Source: Phorcus lineatus (taxonomy: Eukaryota; Mollusca; Gastropoda; Trochida; Trochidae). Taken from it: a stretch of DNA of 64,000 nucleotides. Below the pieces are notes generated by a model, which did not search any database, was not told the DNA's origin, and saw only the letters and a program-made list of their open reading frames with translations. The position numbers and the translations under genes were made by a program. This document shows positions 145-58,246 of this stretch, piece after piece. The stretch's first letter is position 1. Every line of letters begins with the position of its first letter. The stretch is taken from the NCBI GenBank assembly GCA_921293015.1, contig OV121097.1, positions 33,667,929-33,731,928 on the forward strand. The letters run 5' to 3'.

Positions 145-157
145 CACAATGTGTTCT

Positions 158-27670: not shown

Positions 27671-28502
27671 TTCGAGCTTAAACAGGTCCAGATAGCCGAT
27701 TTTGACCAAAATCGCGGAAAAAGACTAAGTCGAAAATATGCATATTGTTGTAGCGAGCGTGATAACTTTCTTAAAAATGCATATTTCTAAACCAAACTTT
27801 CATCAAATGTACATCACAATGTGTTCTATCGATTGAGCAATAAAAAAGTCCTGTCAGATTCTTGGTATGGGCTCCAGATTCGAGCTTAAACAGGTCCAGA
27901 TAGCCGATTTTGACCAAAATCGCAGAAAAAGACTAAGTCAAATATATGCAAATTGTTGTAGCGAGCGTGATAACTTTCTTAAAAATGCATATTTCTAAAC
28001 CAAACTTTCATCAAATGTACATCACAATGTGTTCTATCGATTGAGCAATAAACAATTCCTGTCAGATTCTTGGTATGGGCTCCAGATTCGAGCTTAAACA
28101 GGTCCAGATAGCCGATTTTGACCAAAATCGCGGAAAAAGACTAAGTCGAAAATATGCATATTGTTGTAGCGAGCGTGATAACTTTCTTAAAAATGCATAT
28201 TTCTAAACCAAACTTTCATCAAATGTACATCACAATGTGTTCTATCGATTGAGCAATAAAAAAGTCCTGTCAGATTCTTGGTATGGGCTCCAGATTCGAG
28301 CTTAAACAGGTCCACATAGCCGATTTTGACCAAAATCGCAGAAAAAGACTAAGTCAAATATATGCAAATTGTTGTAGCGAGCGTGATAACTTTCTTAAAA
28401 ATGCATATTTCTAAACCAAACTTTCATCAAATGTACATCACAATGTGTTCTATCGATTGAGCAATAAAAAATTCCTGTCAGATTCTTGGTATGGGCTCCA
28501 GA
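27671..28502. repeat. Two-monomer repeat, two tandem copies
   Basis: Monomers 27671 and 27879 repeat at 28087 and 28295 (416-bp unit). The first of each pair has GTCGAAAAT and CAATAAAAAAGTCC; the second has CGCAG, GTCAAAT and the unusual GCAAATTG. The copies differ at offset 21 of the second monomer (CCAGAT at 27879, CCACAT at 28295). Confidence 0.85.
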
Positions 28503-31351: not shown

Positions 31352-32943
31352 ACAATGTGTTCTATCGATTGAGCAATAAACAATTCCTGTCAGATTCTTG
31401 GTTTGGGCTCCAGATTCGAGCTTAAACAGGTCCACATAGCCGATTTTGACCAAAATCGCAGAAAAAGACTAAGTCAAATATATGCATATTGTTGTAGCGA
31501 GCGTGATAACTTTCTTAAAAATGCATATTTCTAAACCAAACTTTCATCAAAGTTACATCACAATGTGTTCTATCGATTGAGCACTACGAATTTCCTGTCA
31601 GATTCTTGGTTTGGGCTCCAGATTCGAGCTTAAACAGGTCCACATAGCCGATTTTGACCAAAATCGCGGAAAAAGACTAAGTCAAATATATGCATATTGT
31701 TGTAGCGAGCGTGATAACTTTCTTAAAAATGCATATTTCTAAACCAAACTTTCATCAAATGTACATCACAATGTGTTCTATCGATTGAGCAATAAAAAAT
31801 TCCTGTCAGATTCTTGGTATGGGCTCCAGATTCGAGCTTAAACAGGTCCACATAGCCGATTTTGACCAAAATCGCGGAAAAAGACTAAGTCGAATATATG
31901 CATATTGTTGTAGCGAGCGTGATAACTTTCTTAAAAATGCATATTTCTAAACCAAACTTTCATCAAATGTACATCACAATGTGTTCTATCGATTGAGCAA
32001 TAAAAAATTCCTGTCAGATTCTTGGTATGGGCTCCAGATTCGAGCTTAAACAGGTCCAGATAGCCGATTTTGACCAAAATCGCGGAAAAAGACTAAGTCG
32101 AAAATATGCATATTGTTGTAGCGAGCGTGATAACTTTCTTAAAGATGCATATTTCTAAACCAAACTTTCATCAAATGTACATTACAATGTGTTCTATCGA
32201 TTGAGCAATAAAAAATTCCTGTCAGATTCTTGGTATGGGCTCCAGATTCGAGCTTAAACAGGTCCACATAGCCGATTTTGACCAAAATCGCAGAAAAAGA
32301 CTAAGTCAAATATATGCATATTGTTGTAGCGAGCGTGATAACTTTCTTAAAAATGCATATTTCTGAACCAAACTTTCATCAAATGTACATCACAATGTGT
32401 TCTATCGATTGAGCAATAAAAAATTCCTGTCAGATTCTTAATATGGGCTCCAGATTCGAGCTTAAACAGGTCCAGATAGCCGATTTTGACCAAAATCGCG
32501 GAAAAAGACTAAGTCGAATATATGCATATTGTTGTAGCGAGCGTGATAACTTTCTTAAAAATGCATATTTCTAAACCAAACTTTCATCAAATGTACATCA
32601 CAATGTGTTCTATCGATTGAGCAATAAAAAATTCCTGTCAGATTCTTGGTATGGGCTCCAGATTCGAGCTTAAACAGGTCCACATAGCCGATTTTGACCA
32701 AAATCGCGGAAAAAGACTAAGTCGAATATATGCATATTGTTGTAGCGAGCGTGATAACTTTCTTAAAAATGCATATTTCTAAACCAAACTTTCATCAAAT
32801 GTACATCACAATGTGTTCTATCAATTGAGCAATAAAAAATTCCTGTCAGATTCTTGGTATGGGCTCCAGATTCGAGCTTAAACAGGTCCAGATAGTCTTT
32901 TTCCGCGATTTTGGTCAAAATCGGCTAAGTCGAATATATGCAT
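31352..32943. repeat. Mixed satellite monomers before the 52-monomer duplication
   Basis: About 7.5 monomers. They include the AAAGTTACAT type (31549), a CTTAAAGATGC change near 32141, CTGAACC with CTTAATATGGG (32247), an ATCAATTGAG change near 32821 and the second micro-inversion. No gene or foreign DNA is seen. Confidence 0.85.
32896..32924 (-). other. 29-bp micro-inversion within a monomer, copy 2
   Basis: Same 29-bp inversion with the same breakpoints as at 25408-25436, exactly 7488 bp (36 monomers) away. Similar neighbours on the left (CTGAACC monomer, then CTTAATATGGG) point to one inversion event later copied. It ends 19 bp before the left limit of the 52-monomer duplication, so it is absent from the second copy of that unit. 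Confidence 0.95.
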
Positions 32944-35900
32944 ATTGTTGTAGCGAGCGTGATAACTTTCTTAAAAATGCATATTTCTAAACCAAACTTT
33001 CATCAAATGTACATCACAATGTGTTCTATCGATTGAGCACTACGAATTTCCTGTCAGATTCTTGGTTTGGGCTCCAGATTCGAGCTTAAACAGGTCCACA
33101 TAGCCGATTTTGACCAAAATCGCAGAAAAAGACTAAGTCAAATATATGCATATTGTTGTAGCGAGCGTGATAACTTTCTTGAAAATGCATATTTCTAAAC
33201 CAAACTTTCATCAAATGTACATCACAATGTGTTCTATCGATTGAGCAATAAACAATTCCTGTCAGATTCTTGGTATGGGCTCCAGATTCGAGCTTAAACA
33301 GGTACACATAGCCGATTTTGACCAAAATCGCGGAAAAAGACTAAGTCGAATATATGCATATTGTTGTAGCGAGCGTGATAACTTTCTTAAAAATGCATAT
33401 TTCTAAACCAAACTTTCATCAAATGTACATCACAATGTGTTCTATCGATTGAGCAATAAAAAAATCCTGTCAGATTCTTGGTATGGGCTCCAGATTCGAG
33501 CTTAAACAGGTCCAGATAGCCGATTTTGACCAAAATCGCGGAAAAAGACTAAGTCGAAAATATGCATATTGTTGTAGCGAGCGTGATAACTTTCTTAAAA
33601 ATGCATATTTCTAAACAAAACTTTCATCAAATGTACATTACAATGTGTTCTATCGATTGAGCAATAAACAATTCCTGTCAGATTCTTGGTATGGGCTCCA
33701 GATTCGAGCTTAAACAGGTCCACATAGCCGATTTTGACCAAAATCGCAGAAAAAGACTAAGTCAAATATATGCATATTGTTGTAGCGAGCGTGATAACTT
33801 TCTTAAAAATGCATATTTCTAAACCAAACTTTCATCAAAGTTACATCACAATGTGTTCTATCGATTGAGCACTACGAATTTCCTGTCAGATTCTTGGTTT
33901 GGGCTCCAGATTCGAGCTTAAACAGGTTCACATAGCCGATTTTGACCAAAATCGCAGAAAAAGACTAAGTCAAATATATGCATATTGTTGTAGCGAGCGT
34001 GATAACCTTCTTAAAAATGCATATTTCTAAACCAAACTTTCATCAAATGTACATCACAATGTGTTCTATCGATTGAGCAATAAAAAATTCCTGTCAGATT
34101 CTTGGTATGGGCTCCAGATTCGAGCTTAAACAGGTCCAGATAGCCGATTTTGACCAAAATCGCGGAAAAAGACTAAGTCGAAAATATGCATATTGTTGTA
34201 GCGAGCGTGATAACTTTCTTAAAAATGCATATTTCTAAACCAAACTTTCATCAAATGTACATCACAATGTGTTCTATCGATTGAGCAATAAAAAATTCCT
34301 GTCAGATTCTTGGTATGGGCTCCAGATTCGAGCTTAAACAGGTCCACATAGCCGATTTTGACCAAAATCGCAGAAAAAGACTAAGTCGAATATATGCATA
34401 TTGTTGTAGCGAGCGTGATAACTTTCTTAAAAATGCATATTTCTAAACCAAACTTTCATCAAATGTACATCACAATGTGTTCTATCGATTGAGCAATAAA
34501 AAAATCCTGTCAGATTCTTGGTATGGGCTCCAGATTCGAGCTTAAACAGGTCCAGATAGCCGATTTTGACCAAAATCGCGGAAAAAGACTAAGTCGAAAA
34601 TATGCATATTGTTGTAGCGAGCGTGATAACTTTCTTAAAAATGCATATTTCTAAACCAAACTTTCATCAAATGTACATTACAATGTGTTCTATCGATTGA
34701 GCAATAAAAAATTCCTGTCAGATTCTTGGTATGGGCTCCAGATTCGAGCTTAAACAGGTCCACATAGCCGATTTTGACCAAAATCGCAGAAAAAGACTAA
34801 GTCAAATATATGCATATTGTTGTAGCGAGCGTGATAACTTTCTTAAAAATGCATATTTCTGAACCAAACTTTCATCAAATGTACATCACAATGTGTTCTA
34901 TCGATTGAGCAATAAAAAATTCCTGTCAGATTCTTAATATGGGCTCCAGATTCGAGCTTAAACAGGTCCAGATAGCCGATTTTGACCAAAATCGCGGAAA
35001 AAGACTAAGTCGAATATATGCATATTGTTGTAGCGAGCGTGATAACTTTCTTAAAAATGCATATTTCTAAACCAAACTTTCATCAAATGTACATCACAAT
35101 GTGTTCTATCGATTGAGCAATATAAAATTCCTGTCAGATTCTTGGTATGGGCTCCAGATTCGAGCTTAAACAGGTCCAGATAGCCGATTTTGACCAAAAT
35201 CGCGGAACAAGACTAAGTCGAATATATGCATATTGTTGTAGCAAGCGTGATAACTTTCTTAAAAATGAATATTTCTAAACCAAACTTTCATCAAATGTAC
35301 ATCACAATGTGTTCTATCGATTGAGCAATAAACAATTCCTGTCAGATTCTTGGTATGGGCTCCAGATTCGAGCTTAAACAGGTCCACATAGCCGATTTTG
35401 ACCAAAATCGCGGAACAAGACTAAGTCGAATATATGCATATTGTTGTAGCAAGCGTGATAACTTTCTTAAAAATGCATATTTCTAAACCAAACTTTCATC
35501 AAATGTACATCACAATGTGTTCTATCGATTGAGCAATAAACAATTCCTGTCAGATTCTTGGTATGGGCTCCAGATTCGAGCTTAAACAGGTCCACATAGC
35601 CGATTTTGACCAAAATCGCAGAAAAAGACTAAGTCAAATATATGCATATTGTTGTAGCGAGCGTGATAACTTTCTTAAAAATGCATATTTCTAAACCAAA
35701 CTTTCATCAAATGTACATCACAATGTGTTCTATCGATTGAGCAATAAAAAATTCCTGTCAGATTCTTGGTATGGGCTCCAGATTCGAGCTTAAACAGGTC
35801 CACATAGCCGATTTTGACCAAAATCGCAGAAAAAGACTAAGTCAAATATATGCATATTGTTGTAGCGAGCGTGATAACTTTCTTAAAAATGCATATTTCT

Positions 35901-37238
35901 AAACCAAACTTTCATCAAATGTACATCACAATGTGTTCTATCGATTGAGCAATAAAAAATTCCTGTCAGATTCTTGGTATGGGCTCCAGATTCGAGCTTA
36001 AACAGGTCCAGATAGCCGATTTTGACCAAAATCGCGGAAAAAGACTAAGTCGAATATATGCATATTGTTGTAGCGAGCGTGATAACTTTCTTAAAAATGC
36101 ATATTTCTAAACCAAACTTTCATCAAATGTACATCACAATGTGTTCTATCGATTGAGCAATAAAAAATTCCTGTCAGATTCTTGGTATGGGCTCCAGATT
36201 CGAGCTTAAACAGGTCCACATAGCCGATTTTGACCAAAATCGCAGAAAAAGACTAAGTCGAATATATGCATATTGTTGTAGCGAGCGTGATAACTTTCTT
36301 AAAAATGCATATTTCTAAACCAAACTTTCATCAAATGTACATCACAATGTGTTCTATCGATTGAGCAATAAACAATTCCTGTCAGATTCTTGGTATGGGC
36401 TCCAGATTCGAGCTTAAACAGGTCCCCATAGCCGATTTTGACCAAAATCGCGGAAAAAGACTAAGTCGAAAATATGCATATTGTTGTAGCGAGCGTGATA
36501 ACTTTCTTAAAAATGCATATTTCTAAACCAAACTTTCATCAAATGTACATTACAATGTGTTCTATCGATTGAGCAATAAAAAATTCCTGTCAGATTCTTG
36601 GTATGGGCTCCAGATTCGAGCTTAAACAGGTCCACATAGCCGATTTTGACCAAAATCGCAGAAAAAGACTAAGTCAAATATATGCATATTGTTGTAGCGA
36701 GCGTGATAACTTTCTTAAAAATGCATATTTCTGAACCAAACTTTCATCAAATGTACATCACAATGTGTTCTATCGATTGAGCAATAAAAAATTCCTGTCA
36801 GATTCTTAATATGGGCTCCAGATTCGAGCTTAAACAGGTCCACATAGCCGATTTTGACCAAAATCGCAGAAAAAGACTAAGTCAAATATATGCATATTGT
36901 TGTAGCGAGCGTGATAACTTTCTTAAAAATGCATATTTCTGAACCAAACTTTCATCAAATGTACATCACAATGTGTTCTATCGATTGAGCAATAAAAAAT
37001 TCCTGTCAGATTCTTAATATGGGCTCCAGATTCGAGCTTAAACAGGTCCAGATAGCCGATTTTGACCAAAATCGCGGAAAAAGACTAAGTCGAATATATG
37101 CATATTGTTGTAGCGAGCGTGATAACTTTCTTAAAAATGCATATTTCTAAACCAAACTTTCATCAAATGTACATCACAATGTGTTCTATCGATTGAGCAA
37201 TAAAAAATTCCTGTCAGATTCTTGGTATGGGCTCCAGA

Positions 37239-39318
37239 TTCGAGCTTAAACAGGTCCAGATAGCCGATTTTGACCAAAATCGCGGAACAAGACTAAGTCG
37301 AATATATGCATATTGTTGTAGCAAGCGTGATAACTTTCTTAAAAATGCATATTTCTAAACCAAACTTTCATCAAATGTACATCACAATGTGTTCTATCGA
37401 TTGAGCAATAAACAATTCCTGTCAGATTCTTGGTATGGGCTCCAGATTCGAGCTTAAACAGGTCCACATAGCCGATTTTGACCAAAATCGCAGAAAAAGA
37501 CTAAGTCAAATATATGCATATTGTTGTAGCGAGCGTGATAACTTTCTTAAAAATGCATATTTCTAAACCAAACTTTCATCAAATGTACATCACAATGTGT
37601 TCTATCGATTGAGCAATAAACAATTCCTGTCAGATTATTGGTATGGGCTCCAGATTCGAGCTTAAACAGGTCCAGATAGCCGATTTTGACCAAAATCGCG
37701 GAAAAAGACTAAGTCGAATATATGCATATTGTTGTAGCGAGCGTGATAACTTTCTTAAAAATGCATATTTCTAAACCAAACTTTCATCAAATGTACATCA
37801 CAATGTGTTCTATCGATTGAGCAATAAACAATTCCTGTCAGATTCTTGGTATGGGCTCCAGATTCGAGCTTAAACAGGTCCAGATAGCCGATTTTGACCA
37901 AAATCGCGGAAAAAGACTAAGTCGAATATATGCATATTGTTGTAGCGAGCGTGATAACTTTCTTAAAAATGCATATTTCTAAACCAAACTTTCATCAAAT
38001 GTACATCACAATGTGTTCTATCGATTGAGCAATAAACAATTCCTGTCAGATTATTGGTATGGGCTCCAGATTCGAGCTTAAACAGGTCCAGATAGCCGAT
38101 TTTGACCAAAATCGCGGAAAAAGACTAAGTCGAAAATATGCATATTGTTGTAGCGAGCGTGATAACTTTCTTAAAAATGCATATTTCTAAACCAAACTTT
38201 CATCAAATGTACATCACAATGTGTTCTATCGATTGAGCAATAAAAAATTCCTGTCAGATTCTTGGTATGGGCTCCAGATTCGAGCTTAAACAGGTCCACA
38301 TAGCCGATTTTGACCAAAATCGCAGAAAAAGACTAAGTCAAATATATGCAAATTGTTGTAGCGAGCGTGATAACTTTCTTAAAAATGCATATTTCTAAAC
38401 CAAACTTTCATCAAATGTACATCACAATGTGTTCTATCGATTGAGCAATAAAAAATTCCTGTCAGATTCTTGGTATGGGCTCCAGATTCGAGCTTAAACA
38501 GGTCCAGATAGCCGATTTTGACCAAAATCGCGGAACAAGACTAAGTCGAATATATGCATATTGTTGTAGCGAGCGTGATAACTTTCTTAAAAATGCATAT
38601 TTCTAAACCAAACTTTCATCAAATGTACATCACAATGTGTTCTATCGATTGAGCAATAAACAATTCCTGTCAGATTCTTGGTATGGGCTCCAGATTCGAG
38701 CTTAAACAGGTCCACATAGCCGATTTTGACCAAAATCGCAGAAAAAGACTAAGTCAAATATATGCATATTGTTGTAGCGAGCGTGATAACTTTCTTAAAA
38801 ATGCATATTTCTAAACCAAACTTTCATCAAATGTACATCACAATGTGTTCTATCGATTGAGCAATAAACAATTCCTGTCAGATTATTGGTATGGGCTCCA
38901 GATTCGAGCTTAAACAGGTCCAGATAGCCGATTTTGACCAAAATCGCGGAAAAAGACTAAGTCGAATATATGCATATTGTTGTAGCGAGCGTGATAACTT
39001 TCTTAAAAATGCATATTTCTAAACCAAACTTTCATCAAATGTACATCACAATGTGTTCTATCGATTGAGCAATAAACAATTCCTGTCAGATTCTTGGTAT
39101 GGGCTCCAGATTCGAGCTTAAACAGGTCCAGATAGCCGATTTTGACCAAAATCGCGGAAAAAGACTAAGTCGAATATATGCATATTGTTGTAGCGAGCGT
39201 GATAACTTTCTTAAAAATGCATATTTCTAAACCAAACTTTCATCAAATGTACATCACAATGTGTTCTATCGATTGAGCAATAAACAATTCCTGTCAGATT
39301 CTTGGTATGGGCTCCAGA
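37239..39318. repeat. Six-monomer-offset repeat inside the 52-monomer unit
   Basis: Monomers 37239-38070 resemble 38487-39318 at 1248 bp. Marks are GGAACAAG; GTCAAAT with CAATAAACAATT and ATTATTGG; and two CAATAAACAATT copies. Differences include AAGCGTG against GAGCGTG in the first monomer. The same pair appears at 48055-50134 in the second 52-monomer copy, so it predates that duplication. Confidence 0.78.
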
Positions 39319-39734
39319 TTCGAGCTTAAACAGGTCCACATAGCCGATTTTGACCAAAATCGCGGAACAAGACTAAGTCGAATATATGCATATTGTTGTA
39401 GCAAGCGTGATAACTTTCTTAAAAATGCATATTTCTAAACCAAACTTTCATCAAATGTACATCACAATGTGTTCTATCGATTGAGCAATAAACAATTCCT
39501 GTCAGATTCTTGGTATGGGCTCCAGATTCGAGCTTAAACAGGTCCACATAGCCGATTTTGACCAAAATCGCAGAAAAAGACTAAGTCAAATATATGCATA
39601 TTGTTGTAGCGAGCGTGATAACTTTCTTAAAAATGCATATTTCTAAACCAAACTTTCATCAAATGTACATCACAATGTGTTCTATCGATTGAGCAATAAA
39701 AAATTCCTGTCAGATTCTTGGTATGGGCTCCAGA

Positions 39735-41814
39735 TTCGAGCTTAAACAGGTCCAGATAGCCGATTTTGACCAAAATCGCGGAAAAAGACTAAGTCGAAAA
39801 TATGCATATTGTTGTAGCGAGCGTGATAACTTTCTTAAAAATGCATATTTCTAAACCAAACTTTCATCAAATGTACATTACAATGTGTTCTATCGATTGA
39901 GCAATAAAAAATTCCTGTCAGATTCTTGGTATGGGCTCCAGATTCGAGCTTAAACAGGTCCACATAGCCGATTTTGACCAAAATCGCAGAAAAAGACTAA
40001 GTCAAATATATGCATATTGTTGTAGCGAGCGTGATAACTTTCTTAAAAATGCATATTTCTAAACCAAACTTTCATCAAAGTTACATCACAATGTGTTCTA
40101 TCGATTGAGCACTACGAATTTCCTGTCAGATTCTTGGTTTGGGCTCCAGATTCGAGCTTAAACAGGTCCACATAGCCGATTTTGACCAAAATCGCAGAAA
40201 AAGACTAAGTCAAATATATGCATATTGTTGTAGCGAGCGTGATAACTTTCTTAAAAATGCATATTTCTAAACCAAACTTTCATCAAATGTACATCACAAT
40301 GTGTTCTACCGATTGAGCAATAAAAAATTCCTGTCAGATTCTTGGTATGGGCTCCAGATTCGAGCTTAAACAGGTCCAGATAGCCGATTTTGACCAAAAT
40401 CGCGGAAAAAGACTAAGTCGAATATATGCATATTGTTGTAGCGAGCGTGATAACTTTCTTAAAAATGCATATTTCTAAACCAAACTTTCATCAAATGTAC
40501 ATCACAATGTGTTCTATCGATTGAGCAATAAAAAATTCCTGTCAGATTCTTGGTATGGGCTCCAGATTCGAGCTTAAACAGGTCCACATAGCCGATTTTG
40601 ACCAAAATCGCGGAAAAAGACTAAGTCGAAAATATGCATATTGTTGTAGCGAGCGTGATAACTTTCTTAAAAATGCATATTTCTAAACCAAACTTTCATC
40701 AAATGTACATCACAATGTGTTCTATCGATTGAGCAATAAACAATTCCTGTCAGATTCTTGGTATGGGCTCCAGATTCGAGCTTAAACAGGTCCACATAGC
40801 CGATTTTGACCAAAATCGCAGAAAAAGACTAAGTCAAATATATGCATATTGTTGTAGCGAGCGTGATAACTTTCTTAAAAATGCATATTTCTAAACCAAA
40901 CTTTCATCAAATGTACATCACAATGTGTTCTATCGATTGAGCAATAAAAAATTCCTGTCAGATTCTTGGTATGGGCTCCAGATTCGAGCTTAAACAGGTC
41001 CAGATAGCCGATTTTGACCAAAATCGCGGAAAAAGACTAAGTCGAAAATATGCATATTGTTGTAGCGAGCGTGATAACTTTCTTAAAAATGCATATTTCT
41101 AAACCAAACTTTCATCAAATGTACATTACAATGTGTTCTATCGATTGAGCAATAAAAAATTCCTGTCAGATTCTTGGTATGGGCTCCAGATTCGAGCTTA
41201 AACAGGTCCACATAGCCGATTTTGACCAAAATCGCAGAAAAAGACTAAGTCAAATATATGCATATTGTTGTAGCGAGCGTGATAACTTTCTTAAAAATGC
41301 ATATTTCTAAACCAAACTTTCATCAAAGTTACATCACAATGTGTTCTATCGATTGAGCACTACGAATTTCCTGTCAGATTCTTGGTTTGGGCTCCAGATT
41401 CGAGCTTAAACAGGTCCACATAGCCGATTTTGACCAAAATCGCAGAAAAAGACTAAGTCAAATATATGCATATTGTTGTAGCGAGCGTGATAACTTTCTT
41501 AAAAATGCATATTTCTAAACCAAACTTTCATCAAATGTACATCACAATGTGTTCTATCGATTGAGCAATAAAAAATTCCTGTCAGATTCTTGGTATGGGC
41601 TCCAGATTCGAGCTTAAACAGGTCCAGATAGCCGATTTTGACCAAAATCGCGGAAAAAGACTAAGTCGAATATATGCATATTGTTGTAGCGAGCGTGATA
41701 ACTTTCTTAAAAATGCATATTTCTAAACCAAACTTTCATCAAATGTACATCACAATGTGTTCTATCGATTGAGCAATAAAAAATTCCTGTCAGATTCTTG
41801 GTATGGGCTCCAGA
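39735..41814. repeat. Second six-monomer-offset repeat inside the 52-monomer unit
   Basis: Monomers 39735-40566 match 40983-41814 at 1248 bp: GTCGAAAAT with ATTACAATG, then AAAGTTACAT with CACTACGAATTT (40077 and 41325), then two further monomers. A private CTACCGATT near 40310 marks the first copy. It is carried over to 50551-52630. Confidence 0.8.
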
Positions 41815-43759
41815 TTCGAGCTTAAACAGGTCCACATAGCCGATTTTGACCAAAATCGCAGAAAAAGACTAAGTCGAATATATGCATATTGTTGTAGCGA
41901 GCGTGATAACTTTCTTAAAAATGCATATTTCTGAACCAAACTTTCATCAAATGTACATCACAATGTGTTCTATCGATTGAGCAATAAAAAATTCCTGTCA
42001 GATTCTTGGTATGGGCTCCAGATTCGAGCTTAAACAGGTCCAGATAGCCGATTTTGACCAAAATCGCGGAAAAAGACTAAGTCGAAAATATGCATATTGT
42101 TGTAGCGAGCGTGATAACTTTCTTAAAAATGCATATTTCTAAACCAAACTTTCATCAAATGTACATTACAATGTGTTCTATCGATTGAGCAATAAAAAAT
42201 TCCTGTCAGATTCTTGGTATGGGCTCCAGATTCGAGCTTAAACAGGTCCACATAGCCGATTTTGACCAAAATCGCAGAAAAAGACTAAGTCAAATATATG
42301 CATATTGTTGTAGCGAGCGTGATAACTTTCTTAAAAATGCATATTTCTAAACCAAACTTTCATCAAATGTACATCACAATGTGTTCTATCGATTGAGCAA
42401 TAAACAATTCCTGTCAGATTCTTAATATGGGCTCCAGATTCGAGCTTAAACAGGTCCAGATAGCCGATTTTGACCAAAATCGCGGAAAAAGACTAAGTCG
42501 AATATATGCATATTGTTGTAGCGAGCGTGATAACTTTCTTAAAAATGCATATTTCTAAACCAAACTTTCATCAAATGTACATTACAATGTGTTCTATCGA
42601 TTGAGCAATAAAAAATTCCTGTCAGATTCTTGGTATGGGCTCCAGATTCGAGCTTAAACAGGTCCAGATAGCCGATTTTGACCAAAATCGCGGAACAAGA
42701 CTAAGTCGAATATATGCATATTGTTGTAGCAAGCGTGATAACTTTCTTAAAAATGCATATTTCTGAACCAAACTTTCATCAAATGTACATCACAATGTGT
42801 TCTATCGATTGAGCAATAAACAATTCCTGTCAGATTCTTGGTATGGGCTCCAGATTCGAGCTTAAACAGGTCCACATAGCCGATTTTGACCAAAATCGCA
42901 GAAAAAGACTAAGTCAAATATATGCATATTGTTGTAGCGAGCGTGATAACTTTCTTAAAAATGCATATTTCTAAACCAAACTTTCATCAAATGTACATCA
43001 CAATGTGTTCTATCGATTGAGCAATAAACAATTCCTGTCAGATTATTGGTATGGGCTCCAGATTCGAGCTTAAACAGGTCCACATAGCCGATTTTGACCA
43101 AAATCGCGGAAAAAGACTAAGTCGAATATATGCATATTGTTGTAGCGAGCGTGATAACTTTCTTAAAAATGCATATTTCTAAACCAAACTTTCATCAAAT
43201 GTACATCACAATGTGTTCTATCGATTGAGCAATAAACAATTCCTGTCAGATTCTTGGTATGGGCTCCAGATTCGAGCTTAAACAGGTCCAGATAGCCGAT
43301 TTTGACCAAAATCGCGGAAAAAGACTAAGTCGAATATATGCATATTGTTGTAGCGAGCGTGATAACTTTCTTAAAAATGCATATTTCTAAACCAAACTTT
43401 CATCAAATGTACATCACAATGTGTTCTATCGATTGAGCAATAAACAATTCCTGTCAGATTATTGGTATGGGCTCCAGATTCGAGCTTAAACAGGTCCAGA
43501 TAGCCGATTTTGACCAAAATCGCGGAAAAAGACTAAGTCGAAAATATGCATATTGTTGTAGCGAGCGTGATAACTTTCTTAAAAATGCATATTTCTAAAC
43601 CAAACTTTCATCAAATGTACATCACAATGTGTTCTATCGATTGAGCAATAAAACATTCCTGTCAGATTCTTGGTATGGGCTCCAGATTCGAGCTTAAACA
43701 GGTCCACATAGCCGATTTTGACCAAAATCGCGGAAAAAGACTAAGTCAAATATATGCAA

Positions 43760-46700
43760 ATTGTTGTAGCGAGCGTGATAACTTTCTTAAAAATGCATAT
43801 TTCTAAACCAAACTTTCATCAAATGTACATCACAATGTGTTCTATCGATTGAGCACTACGAATTTCCTGTCAGATTCTTGGTTTGGGCTCCAGATTCGAG
43901 CTTAAACAGGTCCACATAGCCGATTTTGACCAAAATCGCAGAAAAAGACTAAGTCAAATATATGCATATTGTTGTAGCGAGCGTGATAACTTTCTTGAAA
44001 ATGCATATTTCTAAACCAAACTTTCATCAAATGTACATCACAATGTGTTCTATCGATTGAGCAATAAACAATTCCTGTCAGATTCTTGGTATGGGCTCCA
44101 GATTCGAGCTTAAACAGGTACACATAGCCGATTTTGACCAAAATCGCGGAAAAAGACTAAGTCGAATATATGCATATTGTTGTAGCGAGCGTGATAACTT
44201 TCTTAAAAATGCATATTTCTAAACCAAACTTTCATCAAATGTACATCACAATGTGTTCTATCGATTGAGCAATAAAAAAATCCTGTCAGATTCTTGGTAT
44301 GGGCTCCAGATTCGAGCTTAAACAGGTCCAGATAGCCGATTTTGACCAAAATCGCGGAAAAAGACTAAGTCGAAAATATGCATATTGTTGTAGCGAGCGT
44401 GATAACTTTCTTAAAAATGCATATTTCTAAACAAAACTTTCATCAAATGTACATTACAATGTGTTCTATCGATTGAGCAATAAACAATTCCTGTCAGATT
44501 CTTGGTATGGGCTCCAGATTCGAGCTTAAACAGGTCCACATAGCCGATTTTGACCAAAATCGCAGAAAAAGACTAAGTCAAATATATGCATATTGTTGTA
44601 GCGAGCGTGATAACTTTCTTAAAAATGCATATTTCTAAACCAAACTTTCATCAAAGTTACATCACAATGTGTTCTATCGATTGAGCACTACGAATTTCCT
44701 GTCAGATTCTTGGTTTGGGCTCCAGATTCGAGCTTAAACAGGTTCACATAGCCGATTTTGACCAAAATCGCAGAAAAAGACTAAGTCAAATATATGCATA
44801 TTGTTGTAGCGAGCGTGATAACCTTCTTAAAAATGCATATTTCTAAACCAAACTTTCATCAAATGTACATCACAATGTGTTCTATCGATTGAGCAATAAA
44901 AAATTCCTGTCAGATTCTTGGTATGGGCTCCAGATTCGAGCTTAAACAGGTCCAGATAGCCGATTTTGACCAAAATCGCGGAAAAAGACTAAGTCGAAAA
45001 TATGCATATTGTTGTAGCGAGCGTGATAACTTTCTTAAAAATGCATATTTCTAAACCAAACTTTCATCAAATGTACATCACAATGTGTTCTATCGATTGA
45101 GCAATAAAAAATTCCTGTCAGATTCTTGGTATGGGCTCCAGATTCGAGCTTAAACAGGTCCACATAGCCGATTTTGACCAAAATCGCAGAAAAAGACTAA
45201 GTCGAATATATGCATATTGTTGTAGCGAGCGTGATAACTTTCTTAAAAATGCATATTTCTAAACCAAACTTTCATCAAATGTACATCACAATGTGTTCTA
45301 TCGATTGAGCAATAAAAAAATCCTGTCAGATTCTTGGTATGGGCTCCAGATTCGAGCTTAAACAGGTCCAGATAGCCGATTTTGACCAAAATCGCGGAAA
45401 AAGACTAAGTCGAAAATATGCATATTGTTGTAGCGAGCGTGATAACTTTCTTAAAAATGCATATTTCTAAACCAAACTTTCATCAAATGTACATTACAAT
45501 GTGTTCTATCGATTGAGCAATAAAAAATTCCTGTCAGATTCTTGGTATGGGCTCCAGATTCGAGCTTAAACAGGTCCACATAGCCGATTTTGACCAAAAT
45601 CGCAGAAAAAGACTAAGTCAAATATATGCATATTGTTGTAGCGAGCGTGATAACTTTCTTAAAAATGCATATTTCTGAACCAAACTTTCATCAAATGTAC
45701 ATCACAATGTGTTCTATCGATTGAGCAATAAAAAATTCCTGTCAGATTCTTAATATGGGCTCCAGATTCGAGCTTAAACAGGTCCAGATAGCCGATTTTG
45801 ACCAAAATCGCGGAAAAAGACTAAGTCGAATATATGCATATTGTTGTAGCGAGCGTGATAACTTTCTTAAAAATGCATATTTCTAAACCAAACTTTCATC
45901 AAATGTACATCACAATGTGTTCTATCGATTGAGCAATATAAAATTCCTGTCAGATTCTTGGTATGGGCTCCAGATTCGAGCTTAAACAGGTCCAGATAGC
46001 CGATTTTGACCAAAATCGCGGAACAAGACTAAGTCGAATATATGCATATTGTTGTAGCAAGCGTGATAACTTTCTTAAAAATGAATATTTCTAAACCAAA
46101 CTTTCATCAAATGTACATCACAATGTGTTCTATCGATTGAGCAATAAACAATTCCTGTCAGATTCTTGGTATGGGCTCCAGATTCGAGCTTAAACAGGTC
46201 CACATAGCCGATTTTGACCAAAATCGCGGAACAAGACTAAGTCGAATATATGCATATTGTTGTAGCAAGCGTGATAACTTTCTTAAAAATGCATATTTCT
46301 AAACCAAACTTTCATCAAATGTACATCACAATGTGTTCTATCGATTGAGCAATAAACAATTCCTGTCAGATTCTTGGTATGGGCTCCAGATTCGAGCTTA
46401 AACAGGTCCACATAGCCGATTTTGACCAAAATCGCAGAAAAAGACTAAGTCAAATATATGCATATTGTTGTAGCGAGCGTGATAACTTTCTTAAAAATGC
46501 ATATTTCTAAACCAAACTTTCATCAAATGTACATCACAATGTGTTCTATCGATTGAGCAATAAAAAATTCCTGTCAGATTCTTGGTATGGGCTCCAGATT
46601 CGAGCTTAAACAGGTCCACATAGCCGATTTTGACCAAAATCGCAGAAAAAGACTAAGTCAAATATATGCATATTGTTGTAGCGAGCGTGATAACTTTCTT

Positions 46701-49700
46701 AAAAATGCATATTTCTAAACCAAACTTTCATCAAATGTACATCACAATGTGTTCTATCGATTGAGCAATAAAAAATTCCTGTCAGATTCTTGGTATGGGC
46801 TCCAGATTCGAGCTTAAACAGGTCCAGATAGCCGATTTTGACCAAAATCGCGGAAAAAGACTAAGTCGAATATATGCATATTGTTGTAGCGAGCGTGATA
46901 ACTTTCTTAAAAATGCATATTTCTAAACCAAACTTTCATCAAATGTACATCACAATGTGTTCTATCGATTGAGCAATAAAAAATTCCTGTCAGATTCTTG
47001 GTATGGGCTCCAGATTCGAGCTTAAACAGGTCCACATAGCCGATTTTGACCAAAATCGCAGAAAAAGACTAAGTCGAATATATGCATATTGTTGTAGCGA
47101 GCGTGATAACTTTCTTAAAAATGCATATTTCTAAACCAAACTTTCATCAAATGTACATCACAATGTGTTCTATCGATTGAGCAATAAACAATTCCTGTCA
47201 GATTCTTGGTATGGGCTCCAGATTCGAGCTTAAACAGGTCCCCATAGCCGATTTTGACCAAAATCGCGGAAAAAGACTAAGTCGAAAATATGCATATTGT
47301 TGTAGCGAGCGTGATAACTTTCTTAAAAATGCATATTTCTAAACCAAACTTTCATCAAATGTACATTACAATGTGTTCTATCGATTGAGCAATAAAAAAT
47401 TCCTGTCAGATTCTTGGTATGGGCTCCAGATTCGAGCTTAAACAGGTCCACATAGCCGATTTTGACCAAAATCGCAGAAAAAGACTAAGTCAAATATATG
47501 CATATTGTTGTAGCGAGCGTGATAACTTTCTTAAAAATGCATATTTCTGAACCAAACTTTCATCAAATGTACATCACAATGTGTTCTATCGATTGAGCAA
47601 TAAAAAATTCCTGTCAGATTCTTAATATGGGCTCCAGATTCGAGCTTAAACAGGTCCACATAGCCGATTTTGACCAAAATCGCAGAAAAAGACTAAGTCA
47701 AATATATGCATATTGTTGTAGCGAGCGTGATAACTTTCTTAAAAATGCATATTTCTGAACCAAACTTTCATCAAATGTACATCACAATGTGTTCTATCGA
47801 TTGAGCAATAAAAAATTCCTGTCAGATTCTTAATATGGGCTCCAGATTCGAGCTTAAACAGGTCCAGATAGCCGATTTTGACCAAAATCGCGGAAAAAGA
47901 CTAAGTCGAATATATGCATATTGTTGTAGCGAGCGTGATAACTTTCTTAAAAATGCATATTTCTAAACCAAACTTTCATCAAATGTACATCACAATGTGT
48001 TCTATCGATTGAGCAATAAAAAATTCCTGTCAGATTCTTGGTATGGGCTCCAGATTCGAGCTTAAACAGGTCCAGATAGCCGATTTTGACCAAAATCGCG
48101 GAACAAGACTAAGTCGAATATATGCATATTGTTGTAGCAAGCGTGATAACTTTCTTAAAAATGCATATTTCTAAACCAAACTTTCATCAAATGTACATCA
48201 CAATGTGTTCTATCGATTGAGCAATAAACAATTCCTGTCAGATTCTTGGTATGGGCTCCAGATTCGAGCTTAAACAGGTCCACATAGCCGATTTTGACCA
48301 AAATCGCAGAAAAAGACTAAGTCAAATATATGCATATTGTTGTAGCGAGCGTGATAACTTTCTTAAAAATGCATATTTCTAAACCAAACTTTCATCAAAT
48401 GTACATCACAATGTGTTCTATCGATTGAGCAATAAACAATTCCTGTCAGATTATTGGTATGGGCTCCAGATTCGAGCTTAAACAGGTCCAGATAGCCGAT
48501 TTTGACCAAAATCGCGGAAAAAGACTAAGTCGAATATATGCATATTGTTGTAGCGAGCGTGATAACTTTCTTAAAAATGCATATTTCTAAACCAAACTTT
48601 CATCAAATGTACATCACAATGTGTTCTATCGATTGAGCAATAAACAATTCCTGTCAGATTCTTGGTATGGGCTCCAGATTCGAGCTTAAACAGGTCCAGA
48701 TAGCCGATTTTGACCAAAATCGCGGAAAAAGACTAAGTCGAATATATGCATATTGTTGTAGCGAGCGTGATAACTTTCTTAAAAATGCATATTTCTAAAC
48801 CAAACTTTCATCAAATGTACATCACAATGTGTTCTATCGATTGAGCAATAAACAATTCCTGTCAGATTATTGGTATGGGCTCCAGATTCGAGCTTAAACA
48901 GGTCCAGATAGCCGATTTTGACCAAAATCGCGGAAAAAGACTAAGTCGAAAATATGCATATTGTTGTAGCGAGCGTGATAACTTTCTTAAAAATGCATAT
49001 TTCTAAACCAAACTTTCATCAAATGTACATCACAATGTGTTCTATCGATTGAGCAATAAAAAATTCCTGTCAGATTCTTGGTATGGGCTCCAGATTCGAG
49101 CTTAAACAGGTCCACATAGCCGATTTTGACCAAAATCGCAGAAAAAGACTAAGTCAAATATATGCAAATTGTTGTAGCGAGCGTGATAACTTTCTTAAAA
49201 ATGCATATTTCTAAACCAAACTTTCATCAAATGTACATCACAATGTGTTCTATCGATTGAGCAATAAAAAATTCCTGTCAGATTCTTGGTATGGGCTCCA
49301 GATTCGAGCTTAAACAGGTCCAGATAGCCGATTTTGACCAAAATCGCGGAACAAGACTAAGTCGAATATATGCATATTGTTGTAGCGAGCGTGATAACTT
49401 TCTTAAAAATGCATATTTCTAAACCAAACTTTCATCAAATGTACATCACAATGTGTTCTATCGATTGAGCAATAAACAATTCCTGTCAGATTCTTGGTAT
49501 GGGCTCCAGATTCGAGCTTAAACAGGTCCACATAGCCGATTTTGACCAAAATCGCAGAAAAAGACTAAGTCAAATATATGCATATTGTTGTAGCGAGCGT
49601 GATAACTTTCTTAAAAATGCATATTTCTAAACCAAACTTTCATCAAATGTACATCACAATGTGTTCTATCGATTGAGCAATAAACAATTCCTGTCAGATT

Positions 49701-52700
49701 ATTGGTATGGGCTCCAGATTCGAGCTTAAACAGGTCCAGATAGCCGATTTTGACCAAAATCGCGGAAAAAGACTAAGTCGAATATATGCATATTGTTGTA
49801 GCGAGCGTGATAACTTTCTTAAAAATGCATATTTCTAAACCAAACTTTCATCAAATGTACATCACAATGTGTTCTATCGATTGAGCAATAAACAATTCCT
49901 GTCAGATTCTTGGTATGGGCTCCAGATTCGAGCTTAAACAGGTCCAGATAGCCGATTTTGACCAAAATCGCGGAAAAAGACTAAGTCGAATATATGCATA
50001 TTGTTGTAGCGAGCGTGATAACTTTCTTAAAAATGCATATTTCTAAACCAAACTTTCATCAAATGTACATCACAATGTGTTCTATCGATTGAGCAATAAA
50101 CAATTCCTGTCAGATTCTTGGTATGGGCTCCAGATTCGAGCTTAAACAGGTCCACATAGCCGATTTTGACCAAAATCGCGGAACAAGACTAAGTCGAATA
50201 TATGCATATTGTTGTAGCAAGCGTGATAACTTTCTTAAAAATGCATATTTCTAAACCAAACTTTCATCAAATGTACATCACAATGTGTTCTATCGATTGA
50301 GCAATAAACAATTCCTGTCAGATTCTTGGTATGGGCTCCAGATTCGAGCTTAAACAGGTCCACATAGCCGATTTTGACCAAAATAGCAGAAAAAGACTAA
50401 GTCAAATATATGCATATTGTTGTAGCGAGCGTGATAACTTTCTTAAAAATGCATATTTCTAAACCAAACTTTCATCAAATGTACATCACAATGTGTTCTA
50501 TCGATTGAGCAATAAAAAATTCCTGTCAGATTCTTGGTATGGGCTCCAGATTCGAGCTTAAACAGGTCCAGATAGCCGATTTTGACCAAAATCGCGGAAA
50601 AAGACTAAGTCGAAAATATGCATATTGTTGTAGCGAGCGTGATAACTTTCTTAAAAATGCATATTTCTAAACCAAACTTTCATCAAATGTACATTACAAT
50701 GTGTTCTATCGATTGAGCAATAAAAAATTCCTGTCAGATTCTTGGTATGGGCTCCAGATTCGAGCTTAAACAGGTCCACATAGCCGATTTTGACCAAAAT
50801 CGCAGAAAAAGACTAAGTCAAATATATGCATATTGTTGTAGCGAGCGTGATAACTTTCTTAAAAATGCATATTTCTAAACCAAACTTTCATCAAAGTTAC
50901 ATCACAATGTGTTCTATCGATTGAGCACTACGAATTTCCTGTCAGATTCTTGGTTTGGGCTCCAGATTCGAGCTTAAACAGGTCCACATAGCCGATTTTG
51001 ACCAAAATCGCAGAAAAAGACTAAGTCAAATATATGCATATTGTTGTAGCGAGCGTGATAACTTTCTTAAAAATGCATATTTCTAAACCAAACTTTCATC
51101 AAATGTACATCACAATGTGTTCTACCGATTGAGCAATAAAAAATTCCTGTCAGATTCTTGGTATGGGCTCCAGATTCGAGCTTAAACAGGTCCAGATAGC
51201 CGATTTTGACCAAAATCGCGGAAAAAGACTAAGTCGAATATATGCATATTGTTGTAGCGAGCGTGATAACTTTCTTAAAAATGCATATTTCTAAACCAAA
51301 CTTTCATCAAATGTACATCACAATGTGTTCTATCGATTGAGCAATAAAAAATTCCTGTCAGATTCTTGGTATGGGCTCCAGATTCGAGCTTAAACAGGTC
51401 CACATAGCCGATTTTGACCAAAATCGCGGAAAAAGACTAAGTCGAAAATATGCATATTGTTGTAGCGAGCGTGATAACTTTCTTAAAAATGCATATTTCT
51501 AAACCAAACTTTCATCAAATGTACATCACAATGTGTTCTATCGATTGAGCAATAAACAATTCCTGTCAGATTCTTGGTATGGGCTCCAGATTCGAGCTTA
51601 AACAGGTCCACATAGCCGATTTTGACCAAAATCGCAGAAAAAGACTAAGTCAAATATATGCATATTGTTGTAGCGAGCGTGATAACTTTCTTAAAAATGC
51701 ATATTTCTAAACCAAACTTTCATCAAATGTACATCACAATGTGTTCTATCGATTGAGCAATAAAAAATTCCTGTCAGATTCTTGGTATGGGCTCCAGATT
51801 CGAGCTTAAACAGGTCCAGATAGCCGATTTTGACCAAAATCGCGGAAAAAGACTAAGTCGAAAATATGCATATTGTTGTAGCGAGCGTGATAACTTTCTT
51901 AAAAATGCATATTTCTAAACCAAACTTTCATCAAATGTACATTACAATGTGTTCTATCGATTGAGCAATAAAAAATTCCTGTCAGATTCTTGGTATGGGC
52001 TCCAGATTCGAGCTTAAACAGGTCCACATAGCCGATTTTGACCAAAATCGCAGAAAAAGACTAAGTCAAATATATGCATATTGTTGTAGCGAGCGTGATA
52101 ACTTTCTTAAAAATGCATATTTCTAAACCAAACTTTCATCAAAGTTACATCACAATGTGTTCTATCGATTGAGCACTACGAATTTCCTGTCAGATTCTTG
52201 GTTTGGGCTCCAGATTCGAGCTTAAACAGGTCCACATAGCCGATTTTGACCAAAATCGCAGAAAAAGACTAAGTCAAATATATGCATATTGTTGTAGCGA
52301 GCGTGATAACTTTCTTAAAAATGCATATTTCTAAACCAAACTTTCATCAAATGTACATCACAATGTGTTCTATCGATTGAGCAATAAAAAATTCCTGTCA
52401 GATTCTTGGTATGGGCTCCAGATTCGAGCTTAAACAGGTCCAGATAGCCGATTTTGACCAAAATCGCGGAAAAAGACTAAGTCGAATATATGCATATTGT
52501 TGTAGCGAGCGTGATAACTTTCTTAAAAATGCATATTTCTAAACCAAACTTTCATCAAATGTACATCACAATGTGTTCTATCGATTGAGCAATAAAAAAT
52601 TCCTGTCAGATTCTTGGTATGGGCTCCAGATTCGAGCTTAAACAGGTCCACATAGCCGATTTTGACCAAAATCGCAGAAAAAGACTAAGTCGAATATATG

Positions 52701-54575
52701 CATATTGTTGTAGCGAGCGTGATAACTTTCTTAAAAATGCATATTTCTGAACCAAACTTTCATCAAATGTACATCACAATGTGTTCTATCGATTGAGCAA
52801 TAAAAAATTCCTGTCAGATTCTTGGTATGGGCTCCAGATTCGAGCTTAAACAGGTCCAGATAGCCGATTTTGACCAAAATCGCGGAAAAAGACTAAGTCG
52901 AAAATATGCATATTGTTGTAGCGAGCGTGATAACTTTCTTAAAAATGCATATTTCTAAACCAAACTTTCATCAAATGTACATTACAATGTGTTCTATCGA
53001 TTGAGCAATAAAAAATTCCTGTCAGATTCTTGGTATGGGCTCCAGATTCGAGCTTAAACAGGTCCACATAGCCGATTTTGACCAAAATCGCAGAAAAAGA
53101 CTAAGTCAAATATATGCATATTGTTGTAGCGAGCGTGATAACTTTCTTAAAAATGCATATTTCTAAACCAAACTTTCATCAAATGTACATCACAATGTGT
53201 TCTATCGATTGAGCAATAAACAATTCCTGTCAGATTCTTAATATGGGCTCCAGATTCGAGCTTAAACAGGTCCAGATAGCCGATTTTGACCAAAATCGCG
53301 GAAAAAGACTAAGTCGAATATATGCATATTGTTGTAGCGAGCGTGATAACTTTCTTAAAAATGCATATTTCTAAACCAAACTTTCATCAAATGTACATTA
53401 CAATGTGTTCTATCGATTGAGCAATAAAAAATTCCTGTCAGATTCTTGGTATGGGCTCCAGATTCGAGCTTAAACAGGTCCAGATAGCCGATTTTGACCA
53501 AAATCGCGGAACAAGACTAAGTCGAATATATGCATATTGTTGTAGCAAGCGTGATAACTTTCTTAAAAATGCATATTTCTGAACCAAACTTTCATCAAAT
53601 GTACATCACAATGTGTTCTATCGATTGAGCAATAAACAATTCCTGTCAGATTCTTGGTATGGGCTCCAGATTCGAGCTTAAACAGGTCCACATAGCCGAT
53701 TTTGACCAAAATCGCAGAAAAAGACTAAGTCAAATATATGCATATTGTTGTAGCGAGCGTGATAACTTTCTTAAAAATGCATATTTCTAAACCAAACTTT
53801 CATCAAATGTACATCACAATGTGTTCTATCGATTGAGCAATAAACAATTCCTGTCAGATTATTGGTATGGGCTCCAGATTCGAGCTTAAACAGGTCCACA
53901 TAGCCGATTTTGACCAAAATCGCGGAAAAAGACTAAGTCGAATATATGCATATTGTTGTAGCGAGCGTGATAACTTTCTTAAAAATGCATATTTCTAAAC
54001 CAAACTTTCATCAAATGTACATCACAATGTGTTCTATCGATTGAGCAATAAACAATTCCTGTCAGATTCTTGGTATGGGCTCCAGATTCGAGCTTAAACA
54101 GGTCCAGATAGCCGATTTTGACCAAAATCGCGGAAAAAGACTAAGTCGAATATATGCATATTGTTGTAGCGAGCGTGATAACTTTCTTAAAAATGCATAT
54201 TTCTAAACCAAACTTTCATCAAATGTACATCACAATGTGTTCTATCGATTGAGCAATAAACAATTCCTGTCAGATTATTGGTATGGGCTCCAGATTCGAG
54301 CTTAAACAGGTCCAGATAGCCGATTTTGACCAAAATCGCGGAAAAAGACTAAGTCGAAAATATGCATATTGTTGTAGCGAGCGTGATAACTTTCTTAAAA
54401 ATGCATATTTCTAAACCAAACTTTCATCAAATGTACATCACAATGTGTTCTATCGATTGAGCAATAAAACATTCCTGTCAGATTCTTGGTATGGGCTCCA
54501 GATTCGAGCTTAAACAGGTCCACATAGCCGATTTTGACCAAAATCGCGGAAAAAGACTAAGTCAAATATATGCAA
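43760..54575. repeat. 52-monomer segment (10,816 bp), tandem copy 2
   Basis: Directly adjacent second copy of 32944-43759. The right limit is GCAAATT at 54575, the partner of 43759. Past it, similarity to the start of the unit lasts only about 95 bp, until CAATAAAAAATT replaces CACTACGAATTT. Near-identity suggests a very recent unequal exchange, or an assembly duplication; sequence alone cannot tell these apart. Confidence 0.95.
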
Positions 54576-57500
54576 ATTGTTGTAGCGAGCGTGATAACTT
54601 TCTTAAAAATGCATATTTCTAAACCAAACTTTCATCAAATGTACATCACAATGTGTTCTATCGATTGAGCAATAAAAAATTCCTGTCAGATTCTTGGTAT
54701 GGGCTCCAGATTCGAGCTTAAACAGGTCCAGATAGCCGATTTTGACCAAAATCGCGGAAAAAGACTAAGTCGAAAATATGCATATTGTTGTAGCGAGCGT
54801 GATAACTTTCTTAAAAATGCATATTTCTAAACCAAACTTTTATCAAATGTACATTACAATGTGTTCTATCGATTGAGCAATAAAAAATTCCTGTCAGATT
54901 ATTGGTATGGGCTCCAGATTCGAGCTTAAACAGGTCCAGATAGCCGATTTTGACCAAAATCGCAGAAAAAGACTAAGTCGAATATATGCATATTGTTGTA
55001 GAGAGCGTGATAACTTTCTTAAAAATGCATATTTCTAAACCAAACTTTCATCAAATGTACATCACAATGTGTTCTATCGATTGAGCACTACGAATTTCCT
55101 GTCAGATTCTTGGTTTGGGCTCCAGATTTGAGCTTAAACAGGTCCAGATAGCCGATTTTGACCAAAATCGCAGAAAAAGACTAAGTCGAATATATGCATA
55201 TTGTTGTAGAGAGCGTGATAACTTTTTTAAAAATGCATATTTCTAAACCAAACTTTCATCAAATGTACATCACAATGTGTTCTATCGATTGAGCAATAAA
55301 AAATTCCTGTCAGATTCTTGGTATGGGGTCCAGATTCGAGCTTAAACAGGTCCAGATAGCCGATTTTGACCACAATCGCGGAAAAAGACTTAGTCGAAAA
55401 TATGCATATTGTTGTAGCGAGCGTGATAACTTTCTTAAAAATGCATATTTCTAAACCAAACTTTCATCAAATGTACATCATAATGTGTTCTATCGATTGA
55501 GCAATAAAAAATTCCTGTCAGATTCTTGGTATGGGCTCCAGATTCGAGCTTAAACAGGTCCAGATAGCCGATTTTGACCAAAATCGCAGAAAAAGACTAA
55601 GTCAAATATATGCATATTGTTGTAGCGAGCGTGATAACTTTCTTAAAAATGCATATTTCTAAACCAAACTTTCATCAAATGTACATCACAATGTGTTCTA
55701 TCGATTGAGCAATAAAAAATTCCTGTCAGATTCTTGGTATGGGCTCCAGATTCGAGCTTAAACAGGTCCAGATAGCCAATTTTGACCAAAATCGCGGAAA
55801 AAGACTAAGTCGAATATATGCATATTGTTGTAGCAAGCGTGATAACTTTCTTAAAAATGCATATTTCTAAACCAAACTTTCATCAAATGTACATCACAAT
55901 GTGTTCTATCGATTGAGCAATAAAAAATTCCTGTCAGATTCTTGGTATGGGCTCCAGATTCGAGCTTAAACAGGTCCAGATAGCCGATTTTGACCAAAAT
56001 CGCGGAAAAAGACTAAGTCGAATATATGCATATTGTTGTAGCGAGCGTGATAACTTTCTTAAAAATGCATATTTCTAAACCAAACTTTCATCAAATGTAC
56101 ATCACAATGTGTTCTATCGATTGAGCAATAAAAAATTCCTGTCAGATTCTTGGTATGGGCTCCAGATTCGAGCTTAAACAGGTCCACATAGCCGATTTTG
56201 ACCAAAATCGCAGAAAAAGACTAAGTCAAATATATGCATATTGTTGTAGCGAGCGTGATAACTTTCTTAAAAATGCATATTTCTAAACCAAACTTTCATC
56301 AAATGTACATCACAATGTGTTCTATCGATTGAGCAATAAACAATTCCTGTCAGATTCTTGGTATGGGCTCCAGATTCGAGCTTAAACAGGTCCAGATAGC
56401 CGATTTTGACCAAAATCGCGGAAAAAGACTAAGTCGAATATATGCATATTGTTGTAGCGAGCGTGATAACTTTCTTAAAAATGCATATTTCTAAACCAAA
56501 CTTTCATCAAATGTACATCACAATGTGTTCTATCGATTGAGCAATAAAAAATTCCTGTCAGATTCTTGGTATGGGCTCCAGATTCGAGCTTAAACAGGTC
56601 CACATAGCCGATTTTGACCAAAATCGCAGAAAAAGACTAAGTCAAATATATGCATATTGTTGTAGCGAGCGTGATAACTTTCTTAAAAATGCATATTTCT
56701 AAACCAAACTTTCATCAAATGTACATCACAATGTGTTCTATCGATAGAGCAATAAAAAATTCCTGTCAGATTATTAATATGGGCTCCAGATTCGAGCTTA
56801 AACAGGTCCAGATAGCCGATTTTGACCAAAATCGCGGAAAAAGACTAAGTCGAATATATGCATATTGTTGTAGCGAGCGTGATAACTTTCTTAAAAATGC
56901 ATATTTCTGAACCAAACTTTCATCAAATGTACATCACAATGTGTTCTATCGATTGAGCACTACGAATTTCCTGTCAGATTCTTGGTTTGGGCTCCAGATT
57001 TGAGCTTAAACAGGTCCAGATAGCCGATTTTGACCAAAATCGCAGAAAAAGACTAAGTCGAATATATGCATATTGTTGTAGAGAGCGTGATAACTTTCTT
57101 AAAAATGCATATTTCTAAACCAAACTTTCATCAAATGTACATCACAATGTGTTCTATCGATTGAGCAATAAAAAATTCCTGTCAGATTCTTGGTATGGGG
57201 TCCAGATTCGAGCTTAAACAGGTCCAGATAGCCGATTTTGACCAAAATCGCAGAAAAAGACTAAGTCGAATATATGCATATTGTTGTAGCGAGCGTGATA
57301 ACTTTCTTAAAAATGCATATTTCTAAACCAAACTTTCATCAAATGTACATCACAATGTGTTCTATCGATTGAGCAATAAAAAATTCCTGTCAGATTCTTG
57401 GTATGGGCTCCAGATTCGAGCTTAAACAGGTCCAGATAGCCGATTTTGACCAAAATCGCGGAAAAAGACTAAGTCGAATATATGCATATTGTTGTAGCGA

Positions 57501-58246
57501 GCGTGATAACTTTCTTAAAAATGCATATTTCTAAACCAAACTTTCATCAAATGTACATCACAATGTGTTCTATCGATTGAGCAATAAAAAATTCCTGTCA
57601 GATTCTTGGTATGGGCTCCAGATTCGAGCTTAAACAGGTCCAGATAGCCGATTTTGACCAAAATCGCAGAAAAAGACTAAGTCAAATATATGCATATTGT
57701 TGTAGCGAGCGTGATAACTTTCTTAAAAATGCATATTTCTAAACCAAACTTTCATCAAATGTACATCACAATGTGTTCTATCGATTGAGCAATAAAAAAT
57801 TCCTGTCAGATTCTTGGTATGGGCTCCAGATTCGAGCTTAAACAGGTCCAGATAGCCAATTTTGACCAAAATCGCAGAAAAAGACTAAGTCAAATATATG
57901 CATATTGTTGTAGCGAGCGTGATAACTTTCTTAAAAATGCATATTTCTAAACCAAACTTTCATCAAATGTACATCACAATGTGTTCTATCGATTGAGCAA
58001 TAAAAAATTCCTGTCAGATTCTTGGTATGGGCTCCAGATTCGAGCTTAAACAGGTCCACATAGCCGATTTTGACCAAAATCGCAGAAAAAGACTAAGTCA
58101 AATATATGCATATTGTTGTAGCGAGCGTGATAACTTTCTTAAAAATGCATATTTCTAAACCAAACTTTCATCAAATGTACATCACAATGTGTTCTATCGA
58201 TTGAGCAATAAACAATTCCTGTCAGATTCTTGGTATGGGCTCCAGA
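54576..58246. repeat. Mixed satellite monomers after the 52-monomer duplication
   Basis: About 17.6 monomers. GAGAGCG copies lie near 54999, 55207 and 57079. The stretch 55335-56166 carries GACTTAGTCGAAAAT with CATAATGTG, matching the later four-monomer repeat at 61367. The stretch 56375-56940 is a partial member of the nine-monomer series (ATTATTAATATGGG at 56771). A TATGGGGTCC change occurs near 55325 and 57197. No gene is seen. Confidence 0.83.

Follow-up and report, generated by a model that had tools for sequence, protein, structure and literature searches.

Fifty-two monomers of a satellite array have probably been duplicated, in tandem and in register, at a recent date. The stretch of DNA analyzed here (the window; 64,000 bp, C39:33667929–33731928) contains two adjacent head-to-tail segments, each of 10,816 bp or exactly 52 × 208 bp and both in register with the 208-bp repeat unit, that differ at just one of 10,816 sites (Table 1). 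The original prediction had described these two segments and their one difference, C at 39569 against A at 50385, and direct alignment bore it out in full. The accepted picture of how satellites grow is unchanged by this finding; rather, an ordinary mode of growth appears to have been caught at a fresh stage, with parent monomers that can still be read and an exchange that the joint places to within 96 bp. In this way, the array offers a view of segment-by-segment growth in a little-studied animal.

Table 1. Features of the satellite array. Positions are those of the window except where contig C39 is named.
Position	Strand	Feature	Basis or remark
1..64000	+	208-bp satellite, inner part of a larger array	307.7 copies; array at about 33.37–33.87 Mb of C39
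32944..43759	+	Copy 1 of the 52-monomer (10,816-bp) segment	Direct comparison of the copies
43760..54575	+	Copy 2 of the 52-monomer (10,816-bp) segment	Direct comparison of the copies
43760..43855	+	Probable exchange interval, 96 bp, identical in both parent monomers	Match extent and parent comparison
43697..43904	+	Joint monomer; left part equals 54513–54575, right part equals 32944–33088	Parent comparison
32881..33088	+	Left parent monomer, carries the microinversion	Parent comparison
54513..54720	+	Right parent monomer	Parent comparison
32896..32924	-	29-bp microinversion bounded by TAG/CTA; ends 19 bp left of copy 1	Parent comparison, motif search
25408..25436	-	Same 29-bp microinversion in another monomer	Motif search
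39569	.	C, probable ancestral state of the sole difference	Copy comparison and monomer column
50385	.	A, probably derived in copy 2 since the duplication, or else a consensus error	Copy comparison and monomer column
C39: 33737911 (199 bp), 33741438 (199 bp), 33742677 (217 bp)		Odd-length inverted-repeat monomers	9 bp shorter or longer than the unit

The satellite and its near-identical segments

The window is a single satellite array whose monomers, arranged head to tail, match their consensus at 96%. It lies on a 44.39-Mb contig of a 957.8-Mb genome assembled in 74 contigs. COX1 is located on contig C74 and has 13 TGA codons; translated with the invertebrate mitochondrial code, the genes there follow the order ND3-ND2-COX1-COX2-ATP6 (all but COX1 identified by eye), which suggests a mollusc or a close relative of molluscs. 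A chitin-binding family was likewise looked for, but neither this genome nor any control had a match, so that this says nothing about the lineage. Point samples and search matches put the left edge of the array at 33.3703–33.3756 Mb and the right edge at 33.8703–33.8750 Mb, a span of about 0.5 Mb. A single monomer of the window departs from the 208-bp length: that at 1339–1552 measures 214 bp and has about six additional bases near 1520–1535. The end of the contig (44389000–44389871) consists of a different tandem repeat (TTTTAGTCGCTCCGTAACC...), and no telomere repeat was seen by eye in its last 400 bases.

Genome-wide, a 33-mer of the unit occurs in 21,022 exact copies (12,796 forward and 8,226 reverse), and among the matches listed, some of them to rare variants, the satellite is present on at least ten contigs (C2, C3, C5, C11, C13, C19, C29, C37, C39 and C53). 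It is therefore abundant and widespread, as a centromeric satellite should be, with the proviso that the contigs are not assigned to chromosomes. Among the matches listed, C29 carries the satellite at two sites 32 Mb apart (6.85–7.09 and 38.94–39.23 Mb), so that one array per centromere is not shown. A literature text search with six short pieces of the monomer, some of them on both strands, gave no match, and no title about this repeat was found among the matches listed for "208 bp" combined with satellite, centromere and bivalve terms. The text of one paper on Cannabis repeats has "208 bp" three times (PMC9183113).

When the window is compared with itself at a shift of 10,816 bp, the match is uninterrupted, save for the one SNV, from 32944 to 43855 (10,912 bp), with bounding mismatches at 32943 and 43856. 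Inside the duplication, 51 of the 52 monomer pairs at this lag are identical and the remaining pair has one difference. Elsewhere in the window the pairs at lag 52 (n = 201) have a mean of 6.3 differences, ranging from 0 to 32, and the same shift outside the duplication gives 94–99% identity in 1-kb blocks from 2001 onward. The first two blocks, at 29% and 62%, fit a shift of register by the 214-bp monomer near 1.5 kb.

How unusual is such a segment? All monomers of 33.400–33.600 and 33.668–33.782 Mb (1507 monomers, 314 kb) were compared with one another, while 33.600–33.668 and 33.782–33.870 Mb were covered by point samples only. A block was defined as at least 6 monomers with at most 1 difference per monomer, and the count omits one of the 1507 monomers, at the right edge of the window. 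There were 95 such blocks across three regions (81, 4 and 10); when the order of the monomers was shuffled (20 times in each of the three regions), none was obtained. At 0.09 differences per kb, the 52-monomer block exceeds all other near-identical blocks of the 314 kb in length. Next come one at lag 32, with 29 monomers and 0.83 differences per kb, and one at lag 19, with 21 monomers and 1.37 differences per kb. Shorter blocks of 13 monomers at lag 16 and of 11 monomers at lag 22 are free of differences altogether, so the 52-monomer duplication is not the sole young event. Its unit had been predicted to be far longer than the repeats elsewhere, put at 3 to 10 monomers, which holds within the window, where the three other blocks have lags of 7, 9 and 10. 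It does not hold for the array at large, whose left 200 kb has lags from 4 to 62 monomers (5th to 95th percentile by monomer), with a maximum of 132. Near-identical blocks are frequent at lags from 4 to more than 60, and the 52-monomer duplication is extreme in length, not in kind.

Other large segments of this sort, with different lags and divergences, are found on this contig and beyond. The stretch 33752047–33759950 of C39 is nearly identical to that from 33762653 to about 33771000. Over the 38 monomers from 33752047 the lag is 51, 53 or 54, with at most 2 differences in 36 of the 38, and the changes of lag would mark later insertions or deletions. On C19, 36593801–36595900 and 37066336–37068435 differ at 2 of 2,100 sites although they are 472,535 bp apart, and three rare-variant markers have the same 472.5-kb spacing. 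By comparison, C19 stretches at shifts of 1 to 4 monomers have 46 to 76 differences (of 1,268 to 1,892), and a shift of 5 gives 12 of 1,060. This pattern suggests that C19 holds a much larger duplication. Copying of segments thus looks common in this satellite, with the 52-monomer event as a long, fresh example.

The joint and the single difference

To analyze the joint, the 1 kb around it was set against the matching register of its two parents, one where copy 1 begins on the left and the other where copy 2 ends on the right. The parents are distinguished by 44 sites, of which 26 lie to the left of the 96-bp tract (17 of them inside a microinversion, described below) and 18 to the right. The joint has the state of the right-end parent at 26 of 26 sites on the left and that of the left-end parent at 18 of 18 sites on the right. 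This agreement is largely a consequence of the duplication itself. Homologous exchange is independently supported only by the fact that the joint keeps register inside 96 bp of sequence shared by both parents. It had also been predicted that the junctions share one point in the monomer. This is true but carries no independent weight, since it follows from the 52 × 208 spacing; furthermore, the match continues to 43855, and the joint is therefore placed only to within 96 bp and could be anywhere in 43760–43855.

The shared tract corresponds to consensus positions of about 191 to 78, across the chosen origin of the unit, and is a conserved part of the monomer. Non-consensus bases average 0.5–1.0% in the 50-bp windows that start at 180–200 and at 0–30 and reach up to 2.6% elsewhere, and one other 50-bp window (start 110) is as low as the tract. 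A 201-bp piece of the joint (43660–43860) that contains markers of both parents is present at three places in the 314 kb, the others being 33754010 and 33764616, which means that this combination of markers is not unique to the joint. A 138-bp piece (43735–43872) with more of the right-hand markers was found once in the 314 kb.

These comparisons bear on whether the second copy is real. An assembly artefact, by which one 10.8-kb segment, perhaps as two alleles with one SNV, was laid down twice, is unlikely, even though two alleles placed in tandem would likewise show one difference and assembly breaks do occur in this satellite (contig C3 starts inside an array). The surroundings of the parents differ at 44 of 1,000 sites (27 outside the microinversion), and overlaps between accurate reads are normally rejected at such divergence, so the joint would most likely come from a real read. 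The longest exact repeat in the window, 6,625 bp (10,912 bp should the SNV prove false), is shorter than common long-read lengths, and the joint is in register. On the other hand, part of the marker combination of the joint exists elsewhere in the array, and the 201-bp piece at two other places, together with the 17 of 44 differences that fall in the microinversion, slightly lowers the confidence in a duplication and slightly raises that in an artefact. On balance, the assembly is probably faithful here, and a real duplication is the preferred reading.

If the duplication is real, the sole difference presumably arose after it. All of the monomers listed as identical to the copy-1 monomer (10, itself included) have C, and the same column of the 1507 monomers has C in 1488 and A in 5, the other four with A being about 230 kb away. 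Given that every listed monomer identical to the copy-1 monomer carries C, the SNV most likely arose by a recent substitution in copy 2, although it could be a consensus error. A divergence of 1 in 10,912 bp, or 9e-5 (95% interval 2e-6 to 5e-4), would correspond to an age of about 15,000 years (400 to 85,000) if a rate of 3e-9 changes per site per year is assumed. Gene conversion, by keeping the copies alike, may make the event seem younger and reset the clock.

Origin of the duplication

How could 52 monomers be copied at once? Two monomers separated by 52 units, one on each sister chromatid (or homologue), would pair in register and exchange within their 96-bp identical tract, and one of the exchange products would thereby gain 52 monomers. 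Copy 2 would later have acquired its one C-to-A change. The pathway could be either unequal crossover or break-induced replication, in which a strand re-invades behind a broken replication fork. The original prediction, a recent in-register crossover or segmental copy, is well supported as regards a recent event in register, both by the joint in the 96-bp identical tract and by the SNV that is probably derived in copy 2. A strict unequal crossover, by contrast, is inseparable from break-induced replication because the same sequence is left by both.

Unequal exchange (Smith 1976) and break-induced replication are both models of satellite array growth, reviewed in PMC8997354. As in those models, out-of-register homologous exchange would here have led to a head-to-tail duplication of multiple monomers with the joint in shared identity. 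As the models are presented there, the present case does not differ from them in kind, although its segment, at 52 monomers, is long and also fresh. In a human three-generation pedigree, reported in a preprint, germline insertions in centromeres were mostly about 1.2–7.5 kb, and one of 56 kb was largely a tandem duplication, with 62 repeats (PMC12746033). Those changes were seen in transmission and involve human alpha-satellite HORs, whereas the one described here is in an invertebrate array and is deduced from one assembly.

Joining of broken ends would also give adjacent copies, and in maize centromeres microhomology-mediated end joining has been held responsible for adjacent duplications (PMC8997354). 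Such an unguided joint would usually be out of register in a 208-bp unit, whereas the joint found here keeps the exact register across 96 bp of identity, which makes end joining or microhomology-mediated joining a very improbable source of the duplication. That the two segments are what remains of a true 52-monomer higher-order repeat, once amplified to many copies, is hardly credible: blocks at lags of 50–54 do exist at about 33.400, 33.562 and 33.752–33.760 Mb, but the unit is not reiterated many times, only two copies being present in the 314 kb (33.600–33.668 and 33.782–33.870 Mb were only point-sampled), the flanking monomers at lag 52 are ordinary, no ungapped block of at least 6 monomers (at most 1 difference each) joins the left 200 kb to the rest, and the block of lag 50 near 33.400 Mb, where lags of 18 and 32 also occur, may be a composite. 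In-register exchange between monomers thus fits the joint best.

A 29-bp microinversion at the inverted repeat of the unit

The microinversion carried by the left parent is located at a short inverted repeat of the 208-bp unit. Genome-wide, the inverted form has 4 exact copies of 39 bases, always on C39 (33693331–33745982), and the canonical form has 2,158 exact copies (1,587 + 571). With up to 4 substitutions allowed, the inverted form is matched by 7 of the 1507 monomers and the canonical form by 1496. Among the 7 is a monomer of 217 bp in which two 18-bp arms, with 2 bp between them, form an inverted repeat, and two further monomers, of 199 bp, have a shortened form with 8- or 9-bp arms. 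It is as if the canonical and inverted forms had given rise to these odd-length monomers by exchange or by template switching. Folded as single strands, the long form would reach -22.1 kcal/mol and the canonical form -4.7.

Template switching at imperfect inverted repeats has been studied in yeast coding genes (PMC8604942). The outcomes described there and those seen here are alike in that the arms of the inverted repeat are homogenised and the intervening stretch is inverted, giving in our case the microinversion and the extended-repeat monomers. That work concerns coding genes of yeast, whereas here the monomers are those of a satellite and the mechanism is a putative one.

Does the inverted repeat have anything to do with the duplication? 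It is conceivable, though quite doubtful, that it acts as a trouble spot for replication, where fold-back would produce the microinverted and extended-repeat monomers and where the collapse of a fork would have seeded the 52-monomer duplication. With 7 inverted monomers in a total of 1507, a parent of the exchange, here the left one, would belong to them by chance in about 1–3% of cases (for two parents, at 7/1507, or 7/547 in the right part), a value calculated after the fact. The microinversion in this parent, itself noticed after the fact, is thus a suggestive hint of a link to the exchange. Further cases of the microinversion are found on the same contig between 33740398 and 33746014.
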